Below the pieces are notes generated by a model, which searched no databases, was not told the DNA's origin, and saw only the letters and a program-made list of their open reading frames with translations. Position numbers and translations under genes: made by a program. A stretch of 64,000 bases of DNA from Bacteroidota bacterium (GTDB lineage Bacteria; Bacteroidota; Ignavibacteria; Ignavibacteriales; Ignavibacteriaceae): positions 1 through 64,000 of the forward strand of contig JAMCWE010000241.1 of the NCBI GenBank assembly GCA_023475265.1, read 5' to 3'. Positions 29,409 through 57,528 of this stretch are shown here, one piece after another; within the stretch, counting starts at the first letter, position 1; each line of letters starts with the position of its first letter.

Positions 29409-29913
29409 TAAGAAAGTAATAACATATTTATTATTCCTATTAATTTTTGCCGGCTGCAAAAATCCTTTTGCACCGGCACTAGATGAAAGTTCAAATAATC
29501 CTTCCTCCACACTTTCAGATCAAAAAACAATTGACGGAGTTTTCCAAAATTTTCAGTATGCTTATACTTTTAGGGATACAATCATCTACGGAAAATTAAT
29601 TGATGATAATTTTATTTTTACTTACAGAGATTATGATCAGGGAGTAGATGTTTCTTGGGGGAGAGATGAAGAAATGAAAACAACTTACGGGTTATTCCAA
29701 AATTCTCAACGCCTTGACTTAATTTGGAATAATATAGTATTATCAACTATAGATTCTTCTTCTGCAAATATTGTGCGGGGATTTAATTTAACAATTACTT
29801 TTAGCTCAACAGATATTGAAAGATTAGATGGGAGAGTTAATATGTCTTTAGTAAAAGATCCGCAAACTAGTAAATGGTTAATTACAAGATGGATTGATGA
29901 ATCTAACTTTTAA
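29404..29913 (+). CDS. Second predicted lipoprotein, ATT start
   Basis: From ATT at 29404 the frame encodes about 169 residues beginning (M)NKKVITYLLFLLIFAGC, an excellent lipoprotein signal with lipobox FAGC. A GGGAGGA sits just upstream, and there is no ATG, GTG or TTG between the upstream in-frame stop (29389) and the lipobox. ATG at 29674 would remove signal and lipobox, so ATT is preferred. The C-terminal part (GRVNMSLVKDPQTSKWLITRWID) resembles the end of the preceding lipoprotein, so they are likely distant paralogues. It overlaps that gene's stop by 5 nt. Function unknown. Confidence 0.6.
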   Translation: MNKKVITYLLFLLIFAGCKNPFAPALDESSNNPSSTLSDQKTIDGVFQNFQYAYTFRDTIIYGKLIDDNFIFTYRDYDQGVDVSWGRDEEMKTTYGLFQNSQRLDLIWNNIVLSTIDSSSANIVRGFNLTITFSSTDIERLDGRVNMSLVKDPQTSKWLITRWIDESNF

Positions 29914-29960
29914 TTAATTTAACTTAGCATACAAATTTTATTAATTAACATTTTGTATAA

Positions 29961-30824
29961 ATGATATATTTTTGGTTGCGAGAAGCATTTAAGCTTATTA
30001 GCCGTGCAAAGTCTTCATTTTTTCTTTCATTAATTTCAACAAGCATTTCGGTGTTCTTAATAGCGGCTTCGCTAATTACGATCCAGCTTTCAAATCAGCT
30101 TCAAAGAAAAATTACTACTAATGTTAACATAAATGTTTTCTTAAAAGACACTCTGAAAACAAGCGATATTGCAAAGTTGAAATCTAATTTGGCTAGTAAG
30201 AATTATATCAATAAAATTTTGTATATAGATAAAAATCAAGCGGCTCAAAATTTTATAAAAGAAACCGGCGAAGATTTTAGAAATATTCTTGATTATAATC
30301 CTCTCCCGGCTTCGTTTTTAATAACATTAAAAGAGGGTTACGTTGAGCGTGATTCGATGAATAAAATTGTAAATACAATTTCTAAAATGAGTGGCGTTGA
30401 TGAAGTTGTTTTTCAAAAAGAATTTGTCTATAAAGTCCTTTCTTATATTAATAAAATTAAAAAGTACATTTTTATTATCACAGCAATTTTATTCTTTATT
30501 TCTATTTATATTGTTTTTAGTACCATGAAATTAATTACTAAATCTAAATATGAAGAACTGGAAACAATGAAATTAGTGGGAGCTAAGTTATCCACTATTA
30601 AGATGCCAATCATATTGAATGGAATAATAATTGGGATTTTATCAAGCATTATTTCCTTAGCTGCGTTTTATCTTTTGATTTATAATTTTTCCAGCCTAAT
30701 TGAATTTCAAAAGCTCTTTAATTTTAATTCCCAATTTTATGTCCTATTTTTACTTGTCATCGGTCCTGTAATTGGAGCAGTTGTTTGTATTTTTTCTTTA
30801 AGGAAAATAACTCTAAAGGTTTGA
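29961..30824 (+). CDS. ftsX: Cell division protein FtsX
   Basis: Membrane component of the FtsEX complex, which activates cell-wall hydrolases at division. It is 287 residues: N-terminal helix (FFLSLISTSISVFLIAASLI), periplasmic extracellular domain with NINVFLKDTLKTSDI and LPASFLITLKEGYV, then three C-terminal helices with the MKLVGAKLSTIKMPIILNG motif. ftsE is not adjacent. It sits 48 nt after the lipoprotein and before the polysaccharide locus. Confidence 0.9.
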   Translation: MIYFWLREAFKLISRAKSSFFLSLISTSISVFLIAASLITIQLSNQLQRKITTNVNINVFLKDTLKTSDIAKLKSNLASKNYINKILYIDKNQAAQNFIKETGEDFRNILDYNPLPASFLITLKEGYVERDSMNKIVNTISKMSGVDEVVFQKEFVYKVLSYINKIKKYIFIITAILFFISIYIVFSTMKLITKSKYEELETMKLVGAKLSTIKMPIILNGIIIGILSSIISLAAFYLLIYNFSSLIEFQKLFNFNSQFYVLFLLVIGPVIGAVVCIFSLRKITLKV

Positions 30825-38762: not shown

Positions 38763-39875
38763 ATGAAAATATTGATGTTAGCTGATCCGGGTTCGGCGCA
38801 CACAATCAAATGGGTTAACTATTTAGTTAAGAGAAATATCCAAATATTCTTATTCGGCTTATCTGAATTTAACGTAGAAGATTATCCTGACAATCAATTC
38901 TTGAATATTGAATCATTAAAAATTAAAGATCATGTTTTTGCAAAAGCTGACGGTGCACTTTCAAAATTTTATTATCTTATAGCCTTGCCGAAAATCAAAA
39001 GAATAATTAAAGAATTTAATCCTGATATACTCCATTCGCATTATGCATCGAGCTATGGATTGCTTGGTGCATTGACCGGTTTCCATCCGTTTATAATTTC
39101 TGTATATGGCTCAGATGTTTATAATTTCCCAACTAGAAATTATTTCTCTAAAATTATTTTCAAATATAATTTATCAAAGGCTGATAAAATATTATCAACC
39201 AGCAAAATAATGACCGTGCAGATTAGGACATACACCAATAAGCAAATTGAAGTTACACCTTTCGGAATTGATATAAATATTTTTCAACCTTGCGACACAA
39301 AAGAAAGATTATTCAATAAAAATGATTTTGTTATCGGCACAGTAAAAACGTTAGAAGATAAATATGGAATCGAATATCTAATCAGAGCTTTTAAAATTGT
39401 TAAGGATAATCATCCCGAACTTCCGTTAAAATTATTGCTGGTCGGAAAAGGTTATAGAGAAAATTATTTTAAAAAGCTTGTTGATGATTTAGGAATCACT
39501 GATGCAACAATATTTACCGGATACGTAAATCCGAATGAGATTCAAATATTTCATAATATGATTGATATTTCTGTTTTTGTTTCAAATGAGGAAAGCTTTG
39601 GCGTTTCTGTTTTGGAAGCTTCTGCGTGCGGTAAACCGGTAGTAGTTTCAAATATCGGCGGCTTACCGGAAATTGTTGAAAATAATTTTACGGGTATAAT
39701 TGTTCATGAAAAAAATGTTAAAGAAACTACCGAAGCAATAGAAAAACTTTTAATGAATAAAGAACTGCGAACATCTTTAGGAAAAAATGGAAGGGAAAGA
39801 GTAATCCGGTGTTATAATATTCAGGACAATGTTCAACAGGTGATTGACATTTATAAAACGGTAATTGATAAATAA
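38763..39875 (+). CDS. Glycosyltransferase family 4 protein
   Basis: Retaining GT-B glycosyltransferase of 370 residues. The N-terminal donor half has ADPGSAHTIKWVNYLVKRN and DILHSHYASSYG; the C-terminal half has LLLVGKGYRE, IFTGYV, ESFGVSVLEASACGKPVVVSNIGGLPEIV, the conserved EX7E nucleotide-sugar site. It belongs with the cluster on the same strand, 26 nt after the ligase. The donor is unknown. It is followed by the long repeat array. Confidence 0.92.
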   Translation: MKILMLADPGSAHTIKWVNYLVKRNIQIFLFGLSEFNVEDYPDNQFLNIESLKIKDHVFAKADGALSKFYYLIALPKIKRIIKEFNPDILHSHYASSYGLLGALTGFHPFIISVYGSDVYNFPTRNYFSKIIFKYNLSKADKILSTSKIMTVQIRTYTNKQIEVTPFGIDINIFQPCDTKERLFNKNDFVIGTVKTLEDKYGIEYLIRAFKIVKDNHPELPLKLLLVGKGYRENYFKKLVDDLGITDATIFTGYVNPNEIQIFHNMIDISVFVSNEESFGVSVLEASACGKPVVVSNIGGLPEIVENNFTGIIVHEKNVKETTEAIEKLLMNKELRTSLGKNGRERVIRCYNIQDNVQQVIDIYKTVIDK

Positions 39876-40012
39876 GATTGATAGATTACGTTATGCGAGA
39901 TGGAGAGATTATATCTTACTCAATGATCAACACCAGTTACATCTTTTTTGATAATAATAAATTTAGCTTTAACTATAACCTTATTCTAAAAAAATAGAAT
40001 ATTTTCAAAGTT

Positions 40013-40295
40013 AATTGTGATAATTTAATATGAAATTATAATTAATCGACGATTAATTGTAATTCCATGACTTAGAATTACAATTTTTTGGTTTCGAATT
40101 ATAATTATTTAATCTTTAATTGTAATTAATTAGGATGTAATTATAATAGTTTTGTCTTTTATTATAATTCCAATAATCAGAATTATAATAAAATGAAGAT
40201 TAATTGTAATTATTTTGTTCCTAATTATAATAGTTTCAAAGGTTATTATAATTTCAATAAAAAAAATTCTAATAATCTTTAGATTAATTGAAGTT
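40013..40295. repeat. Array of 10-bp AATT-palindromes at exact 21-bp period
   Basis: Inside a 534-nt gene-free gap (39876-40409), 10-bp units of consensus AATTRYAATT start at 40013, 40034, 40055, 40076, 40097, 40118, 40139, 40160, 40181, 40202, 40223, 40244, 40265 and 40286: every step is 21 bp. The units read for example aattataatt, aattgtaatt, aattacaatt and tattataatt; the inner eleven (40034-40253) match at 9-10 of 10 positions, the outer ones less well. Weaker matches in phase occur at 39971 and 39992. The 11-bp spacers are unrelated to each other (aatcgacgatt, ccatgacttag, ttttggtttcg and so on). The period is two helical turns, so all palindromes face the same side of the DNA. It could be a cooperative protein-binding array, phased curvature or a repeat relic. 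Not CRISPR: the repeat is too short and no cas gene is seen. Confidence 0.85.
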
Positions 40296-40409
40296 AATAT
40301 TCAATTTAAATAACTCAATTAACATAAATATGATAAAATTTTGAAAGTAGTTTTTAAAACTTTCAATATTACGCGGCAATAAAATTTTAATACAAACTAA
40401 AAAATAATT

Positions 40410-41435
40410 TTGTCTCAAGAAAATTCAAATTCTAATCCTTTAATATCAGTTATTGTTCCTTGCCGGAATGAATCTGCTTATATTGAAAAAACTATTCAAT
40501 CATTATTTGGACAAAAAAATGTTCCCGGTGAAATTGAAATCTTAGTGGTCGATGGAGAAAGTACCGATGGAACACGAGATTTATTAAATAAGATTTCGTT
40601 AAAAGACAAAAGATTAAAAGTAATTTCTAATCAGAAAAAAATAACTCCCGTTGCGATGAATCTTGGAATAAAAGAAGCTCAAGGTGAATTTATAGCAATA
40701 ATGGGAGCTCATTCTGAGTATGATGAAAATTATTTATCAGAATGTTTAAAACTATTTAATATAGATTCATCAATTATGTGTACGGGCGGACCAATATTTA
40801 GCGAAGGTAAAACTAGTTTTGGAAAAGCTGCGGCGATTGCAATGTCTCATCCAATCGGTGTCGGAAATGCTAAACACCGATTTCCAAATTATGAAGGTTA
40901 CGCGGAAGGTGCCGGCTTCCCGGTTTTTAAAAAGGAAGTTTTGGAAAAAATCGGATTGTATGATGAGGACTTGGTTAGAAATCAGGATGATGAATTAAAT
41001 TTTAGATTAACTAAATCCGGATACAAAGTTTATATTTCTCCAAAAGCAAAAAGCAAATATTACGTTAGAGATAATCCCCAAAAATTATTTAATCAATATT
41101 TCAATTATGGTTTTTGGCGAATTGCAACCTTGAAAAAACATGGCGTGGCAGTATCGTTTCGTCAATTAGTTCCTGCGTTGTTTTATTTAAGTATTATTTT
41201 AACGATTGGGATTGCGCCATTTATTCCTTTAACTCCTTTGATTACAATTTTAACAATTCCTATTATTTATTTAAGTATTGTTGCTATATTTACATCCAAA
41301 ATAATGATTGAAAAGGGAATCAAAATCGGGTTGATGTTTCCTCTAGCAATTATGATTCTTCATTTCTCTTATGCTTTTGGTTTTTTAAAAGGATTGGGGG
41401 CTCTTTATAAATCAGAAATGATTTTCCAGTTATAA
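40410..41435 (+). CDS. Glycosyltransferase family 2 protein, ExoA-like
   Basis: Inverting GT-A glycosyltransferase, 341 residues. The N-terminal domain has VIVPCRNESAYIEKTIQSL, the DXD-like VVDGESTDGT, and NLGIKEAQGEFIAIMGAHSEY; YDEDLVRNQDDELNFRL is the typical acceptor-site motif. Two or three C-terminal helices (LVPALFYLSIILTIGIAPF) anchor it to the membrane, as in ExoA-type succinoglycan transferases. TTG at 40410 is the first codon downstream of the palindrome array. Its transcription may start within the gap. Confidence 0.88.
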   Translation: MSQENSNSNPLISVIVPCRNESAYIEKTIQSLFGQKNVPGEIEILVVDGESTDGTRDLLNKISLKDKRLKVISNQKKITPVAMNLGIKEAQGEFIAIMGAHSEYDENYLSECLKLFNIDSSIMCTGGPIFSEGKTSFGKAAAIAMSHPIGVGNAKHRFPNYEGYAEGAGFPVFKKEVLEKIGLYDEDLVRNQDDELNFRLTKSGYKVYISPKAKSKYYVRDNPQKLFNQYFNYGFWRIATLKKHGVAVSFRQLVPALFYLSIILTIGIAPFIPLTPLITILTIPIIYLSIVAIFTSKIMIEKGIKIGLMFPLAIMILHFSYAFGFLKGLGALYKSEMIFQL

Positions 41436-57455: not shown

Positions 57456-57528
57456 GGGCAGATAGCTCAGTCGGTAGAGCAAAGGACTGAAAATCCTTGT
57501 GTCGGCGGTTCGATTCCGTCTCTGCCCA
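57456..57528 (+). tRNA. tRNA-Phe (GAA)
   Basis: A 73-nt cloverleaf with acceptor arms GGGCAGA and TCTGCCC, D-arm (TAGCTCAGTCGGTAGAGC), anticodon loop CTGAAAA carrying GAA, and T-arm CGGTTCGATTCCG. Discriminator A at 57528; CCA is not encoded. tRNA genes are frequent integration sites, and the following DNA looks accessory. Confidence 0.95.

Follow-up and report, generated by a model that had tools for sequence, protein, structure and literature searches.

The closest published element found was BrickBuilt (PMC4596501) of Porphyromonas gingivalis, in which a MITE carries a 23-bp minisatellite; it is always intergenic and present in 19 copies. The arrays described here resemble it in being noncoding and only intergenic, with variable gene neighbours and a tandem unit close to two turns of the helix in length (23 nt in BrickBuilt) in a small dispersed element, and in a host on the Bacteroidota side of the tree. 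BrickBuilt units are of 23 bp and one sequence, whereas the units here are of 21 bp (or 20/21 bp), highly degenerate, and built on a conserved core with a motif specific to each family; the IS5-like terminal inverted repeats of BrickBuilt were not found in the arrays here. Noncoding satellites occur as dispersed families in the genomes of Leptospira interrogans and Methanocella conradii (PMC6749651), and these too are noncoding tandem-repeat families copied around a genome. In the part of that survey drawn on here, the satellites are long repeats of other lengths, emphasis falls on coding multiples of three, and neither a fixed two-turn pitch nor a core/spacer structure is described. TAACTGA heptamer repeats of Beggiatoaceae, Cyanobacteria and some Bacteroidetes have no known function (PMC4679880). 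They are likewise short intergenic direct repeats, some of them in Bacteroidetes, with a 7-bp unit of fixed sequence, whereas a 7-bp sub-period was absent from the array studied here.

Three further systems were compared. The iterons of plasmid origins are tandem protein-binding sites of 17-22 bp at about two-turn spacing, vary in sequence between plasmids, and adjoin a rep gene and the origin. The arrays here differ in that many occur per chromosome and no rep gene adjoins; an iteron array was ruled out for the present locus, whose neighbours are glycosyltransferases with no adjacent replication initiator gene. REP, BIME and REPIN sequences are dispersed intergenic palindromes of few sequence classes per genome, tied to RAYT transposases; the arrays share the dispersed intergenic palindromes, but REP-type sequences are not known to have a tandem fixed 21-bp pitch. 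CRISPR also combines a palindromic repeat with a variable spacer of constant length. Its repeats are near-identical and roughly 23-50 bp long, with longer spacers and cas genes, whereas the core here is degenerate and 10 bp long and the spacer is 11 bp, and the pattern of constraint and the element-like spread also differ. By eye, no cas-like gene was present among the neighbouring ORFs, and with the short degenerate core and spacer this ruled out a CRISPR array. No paper combining Ignavibacteria with intergenic tandem repeats was found in the literature searched. The arrays are best placed with an already known kind, the dispersed bacterial minisatellite or MITE; the new part is the fixed helical pitch with its core/spacer constraint.

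The locus lies in a 64-kb stretch of DNA analysed as a whole (the window). Here, between two sugar-transfer genes of an Ignavibacteria-like bacterium, 14 imperfect AATT palindromes form a noncoding ladder with an exact pitch of 21 bp, or two DNA turns. The array occupies 40013..40306 (no strand assigned, as for all parts of the array and its flanks), each unit consisting of a 10-bp dyad core, WATTRYAATW, and an 11-bp spacer. The 534-bp intergenic gap that houses it separates a GT4-type glycosyltransferase gene upstream (38763..39875, + strand, 370 aa) from a GT2-type glycosyltransferase gene downstream (40410..41435, + strand, 341 aa). The left flank (39876..40012) contains an AT-rich inverted repeat (TATTCTA..TAGAATA), and the right flank (40307..40409) contains the inverted repeat AATTTTGAAAGT/ACTTTCAATATT at 40337-40370. 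The original prediction, made from the sequence, had put the 14 units in unbroken phase at 40013+21n, and both coordinates and pitch were correct, TRF reporting 0% indels. Identity at lag 21 was 0.560 in the array, against a mean of 0.365 (sd 0.026, max 0.454) in 2000 dinucleotide shuffles of the gap, and the longest phased run was 14, against at most 3 in the same shuffles, which confirms the array. A lag-21 scan of the whole window gave no other place with a score close to that of the array. Two further weak units had been suggested upstream, at 39971 and 39992; they have 3 mismatches each, were not recovered by the unit profile, and are too weak to count.

The units had been described as AATT-R-Y-AATT palindromes. 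Six of the 14 cores are exact, five have one mismatch (AATTATAATA or TATTATAATT) and three, in the units at 40013, 40265 and 40286, have two; the best-conserved stretch is a run of five consecutive exact AATTRYAATT cores (units 1-5, 40034..40127). The half-site is WATTR, most often AATTA (13/28), then AATTG and TATTA (6/28 each). The R-Y centre is not strictly palindromic, being often GT and once AC; a dimer site would account for this more readily than a strict hairpin. The spacers had been held to share no sequence; they are not fully unrelated, in that an 84-bp (4-unit) higher-order repeat at 40096..40263, present in two copies of 74% identity, raises spacer identity to 0.45 at a distance of four units. 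Inverted relations among the spacers did not exceed chance.

Column rates were compared between cores and spacers. Spacers change two to three times as fast as the motif columns, both between copies and between units, and in 22 of 24 arrays the column rates were too uneven for a uniform-rate model on the unit tree. The window array was among the strongest (p<1/400), with 64 inferred changes and zero indels. Between two GAAGGAATATTCCTTC elements placed independently in one genome, divergence is 15% in the core and 36% in the spacers (p=7e-6), and orthologous CTTTCGAAG arrays in G000 and G004 are identical at 62/72 core positions and 44/84 positions of the other columns (p=6e-6), with no indel. 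Concerted evolution and mutation bias could add to the uneven column rates, and could less easily produce the contrast between copies. These observations bear on a selfish or neutral minisatellite, in which 21-bp tandem duplications spread and decay, the unit has no function, and the pattern is a residue of duplication history. The 42- and 84-bp higher-order repeats show that unequal exchange takes place, and the lineage-specific presence, intergenic position and lack of orientation bias of the arrays would all be expected; but neutral decay fails because of the core/spacer contrast, found within arrays against a tree-based null and again between homologous copies. It also does not account for a pitch held through as many substitutions as the window array has undergone, and it leaves the restriction to 21 and 42 bp unexplained, tandem repeats of other genomes having mixed periods. 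We consider this explanation unlikely, and the original view that site and spacing are under selection, rather than products of plain slippage, was supported.

The window array proved to be one of many. A scan at every lag between 8 and 60 covered stretches totalling about 1.2 Mb, drawn from the window's genome and from two relatives. Of 33 noncoding tandem arrays in the sampled DNA of genera g1 and g8, 24 had a lag of 21 or 42, a rate that refers to sampled stretches of MAGs rather than whole genomes, with a count slightly inflated by some stretches of G009 and G019 having been picked for a pattern match and hence not blindly. Flanks taken from 53 named genome stretches gave a corresponding figure of 0 of 12, each stretch's triggering array being excluded (Fisher p=1e-5 for the contrast). 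Neither 330 kb from other families of the order nor small samples of the family's genera other than g1 and g8 contained 21/42-bp arrays. With 24/33 in these two genera, none in the DNA sampled from other families and 0/12 elsewhere, the class looks like a lineage trait rather than a general property of bacterial tandem repeats, and it is apparently undescribed. A search for the pattern in genomes beyond the window's own gave 53 matches, mostly near-identical 21-bp tandem repeats selected by the pattern itself, so those outside Ignavibacteria are no proof of a widespread class. AATT arrays of the same pitch, the relatives of the window array, were found as the original prediction had proposed to search for them, in two genomes of the family that belong to a different genus, G019 with two loci and G044 with one; two of these arrays have common ends beyond the array. 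Every array family has its own motif, for example CTTTCGAAG, GAAGGAATATTCCTTC, TATTTAAATA, CATTT..aGTca and TGmCA..ATTgaTT.

Spacings between successive units were measured in the 24 arrays with each array's own profile as probe, giving 21 bp 333 times, 20 bp 16 times, and 22 and 23 bp three times each. Nearly all of the 20-bp spacings came from the GAAGGAATATTCCTTC family, in which both 20 and 21 occur. Both values correspond to two helical turns, and 20 is not a codon multiple. The last point concerns the explanation that the arrays are heptapeptide-repeat genes or their remnants (21 bp = 7 codons), for which the period is suitable, several arrays are open in one frame, and true coding heptads with AATTGTAATT occur in viral contigs. 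The window array has 4-25 stops per frame, however, and stops in the arrays were not clearly fewer than in column-shuffled versions (p=0.02 in 1 of 26 arrays and >0.1 in the others). Since one family has 20-bp pitches and stops are not avoided beyond column make-up, the pitch is not a reading frame; stop counts against column shuffles ruled out coding as the explanation, which we regard as barely credible. Four viral contigs with the pattern were likewise set aside as a link to viruses, the pattern there being coding heptads: L300 (2877-3170), L301, L299 and L298 have open frames with heptapeptide repeats whose DNA carries AATTGTAATT at 21 bp, and the heptapeptides of L300 and L301 are Cys-rich and NCNFCPC-like, so that they resemble the arrays in appearance and are coding. 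Two long 21-bp arrays also lie in open frames, L123 18813-19379 (27 units) and L139 13226-13603 (18 units); these are possibly real heptad-repeat proteins, or arrays open by chance.

A mobile repeat had been among the meanings first suggested, and it was supported by whole arrays of other families copied to unrelated loci. A 373-bp element of G009, nearly all array, is present at three unrelated loci, 95% identical at two of them and 79% at the third, and homology ends at the array edges. The copies consist of about 370 bp of GAAGGAATATTCCTTC palindromes at 20/21-bp pitch and lie at L130 (14642-15014), L131 (12617-12989) and L314 (G009 C68:87061-87417). The family of L091-L095 recurs at several G009 loci, that of L100 is found at three places in the window's own genome, and the CTTTCGAAG family is present in G004 at the orthologous locus and a second place. 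The three G009 copies and the L100 family are comparable to BrickBuilt in having several sharply bounded copies in unrelated intergenic positions; the window array has no second copy in its genus, its relatives being those in G019 and G044. The G009 C68 copy has AAATCCCTTCCGGCGAAG-like inverted ends, the units themselves being palindromic. No target-site duplication was visible at the ends of the three G009 copies, and a k-mer search of array flanks gave no terminal sequence common to all arrays; GATTTTAGCTTA is common to the L113 and L130 families only. It stands at L113 620-643 and at the right end of the L130 element, following two families of different motif, and is possibly a shared end. 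At L091 and L095 (end of G009 C45 and start of C67) the DNA beside a 42-bp array is duplicated at contig ends, which suggests part of a larger duplicated segment; L091 includes a LuxR-type regulator gene. A separate stretch at L100:1382-2188, part of a gene whose product has a type IX secretion C-terminal domain, recurs in dozens of copies across the genus.

At the window locus the array is a lineage-specific insertion. The nearest relative, G004, has the same two glycosyltransferase genes 15 bp apart and no array, about 510 bp (array and both flanks) of the window gap being missing from the orthologous gap. The array is also absent from the orthologous gaps of G001 and G008, which contain the decayed remains of a glycosyltransferase gene and a short open frame. 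The G001 gap (L282, G001 C11, about 29420-30030) contains a decayed GT2 glycosyltransferase fragment with several stops, and the gap between these genes therefore changes often. Six congeners were examined at the orthologue of one gene next to the L104 array, with that neighbour as the only anchor, and the array was not found in any of them. No second copy of the window array was found within its genus, so its own transposition is judged from the other families; we infer that the window copy was brought in by transposition and did not form where it now lies.

The genes next to the arrays have no common function, co-directional, convergent and divergent gaps all occur, and there is no orientation bias. 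No neighbour gene or mobile-element gene is common to the arrays, and no transposase was present among the neighbouring genes. The AATT array L045 adjoins a SpoIIE-type phosphatase, and L046 adjoins transglutaminase-like and pyridoxamine-oxidase-like ORFs (named by eye). The units might instead be operators at which a local regulator controls the polysaccharide operon. The dyad sites do lie some 100 bp ahead of a glycosyltransferase gene, and array L098 likewise precedes a glycosyltransferase gene; but the array is missing from the orthologous operon in three congeners, the AATT arrays L045 and L046 adjoin unrelated genes, and arrays overall show no promoter-side bias. We therefore hold local operators to be improbable. 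Sigma-70-like matches in the array arise from the TATAAT within the core and were not accepted as promoters. The original framing of the array as a feature of a polysaccharide locus was accordingly too narrow, the array being one of many at 21 bp that have other motifs and stand beside unrelated genes.

Dyad symmetry exceeded that of column permutations in the window array (p<1/400) and in about half of the arrays, and was absent in several (L104, L098 and L100). Symmetric units could act as RNA or single-stranded DNA, either as hairpins in a transcript (attenuator, insulator or stabiliser between operon genes) or as folded strands handled by a transposase or recombinase. RNA of the window array folds better than dinucleotide shuffles (z -6.3) and slightly better than the same cores with shuffled spacers (p=0.02), yet the cores alone give most of the fold energy. 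Covariation of within-unit pairs was found in some G009 families (L091, z 4.0; L094, z 5.0 at the dyad centre), and one-sided changes between copies restore pairs more often than they break them (16 vs 9); in the window array covariation was not significant. Several families have no dyad, and RNA hairpins need no fixed 21-bp pitch. An Rfam search of the window gave no match to the array. We judge an RNA or folded-strand role rather unlikely. The window's single Rfam match was a tRNA gene at 57456-57528.

Phased A/T curvature had been another of the suggested meanings: phasing at 21 bp would give planar-bent DNA bound by HU/H-NS-like proteins. In a wedge model, the result being that of a model only, arrays exceeded dinucleotide shuffles (Stouffer 5.7), but permuting their columns at unchanged period left them just as bent (Stouffer -0.1 and 0.75 in two models), and A/T content had no 10.5-bp harmonic (0.106 vs 0.102 in the null). 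Curvature fails on this comparison with permuted columns; the wedge model and the missing harmonic ruled it out as the shared cause, and it was not supported as the reason for the window array, where we regard it as very improbable.

A fixed two-turn pitch, free spacers, a constrained and often dyadic core, a family-specific motif and spread as units are best fitted by a ladder of sites on one helix face within a MITE-like element. We put the chance at about even that the window array is such a noncoding, nomadic minisatellite element, with units that are protein-binding sites along one face of the helix. Each element would be a ladder of about 8-27 degenerate protein-binding sites two helical turns apart (21 bp, with one family at 20 or 21). 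The constrained core feature is probably the protein contact, to which the uneven column rates and the slower change of cores between copies lend indirect support, and the window site would be a dimer site made of two inverted WATTR half-sites. With one dimer per rung on the same DNA face, each could contact neighbouring dimers, and the predicted binding protein would be a cooperative dimer, mostly dimeric across the class. Its putative role would be upkeep of the element itself or organisation of the nucleoid, rather than control of one particular neighbour gene. Because the motifs differ among array families, many proteins or one tolerant protein would be needed. A wider reading is more tentative and less likely than not: the mobile ladders of family-specific, helically phased sites in Ignavibacteria may be a new class of chromosomal element, with one or more proteins polymerising along one DNA face and with the pitch, not the sequence, conserved across the class, in the manner of a dispersed bacterial satellite or centromere-like system.

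Intergenic tandem repeats of bacteria are usually read as products of slippage or as fragments of coding repeats. The arrays in this family are noncoding and have many unrelated motifs at one exact two-turn pitch, with constrained cores, free spacers and partial mobility as units, so that helical phase is the likely selected property. Selection on helical phase predicts a protein that reads the pitch, and the class gives many natural replicates in which this may be tested. A cooperative protein, if one exists, would be the bacterial counterpart of proteins that bind satellite DNA.
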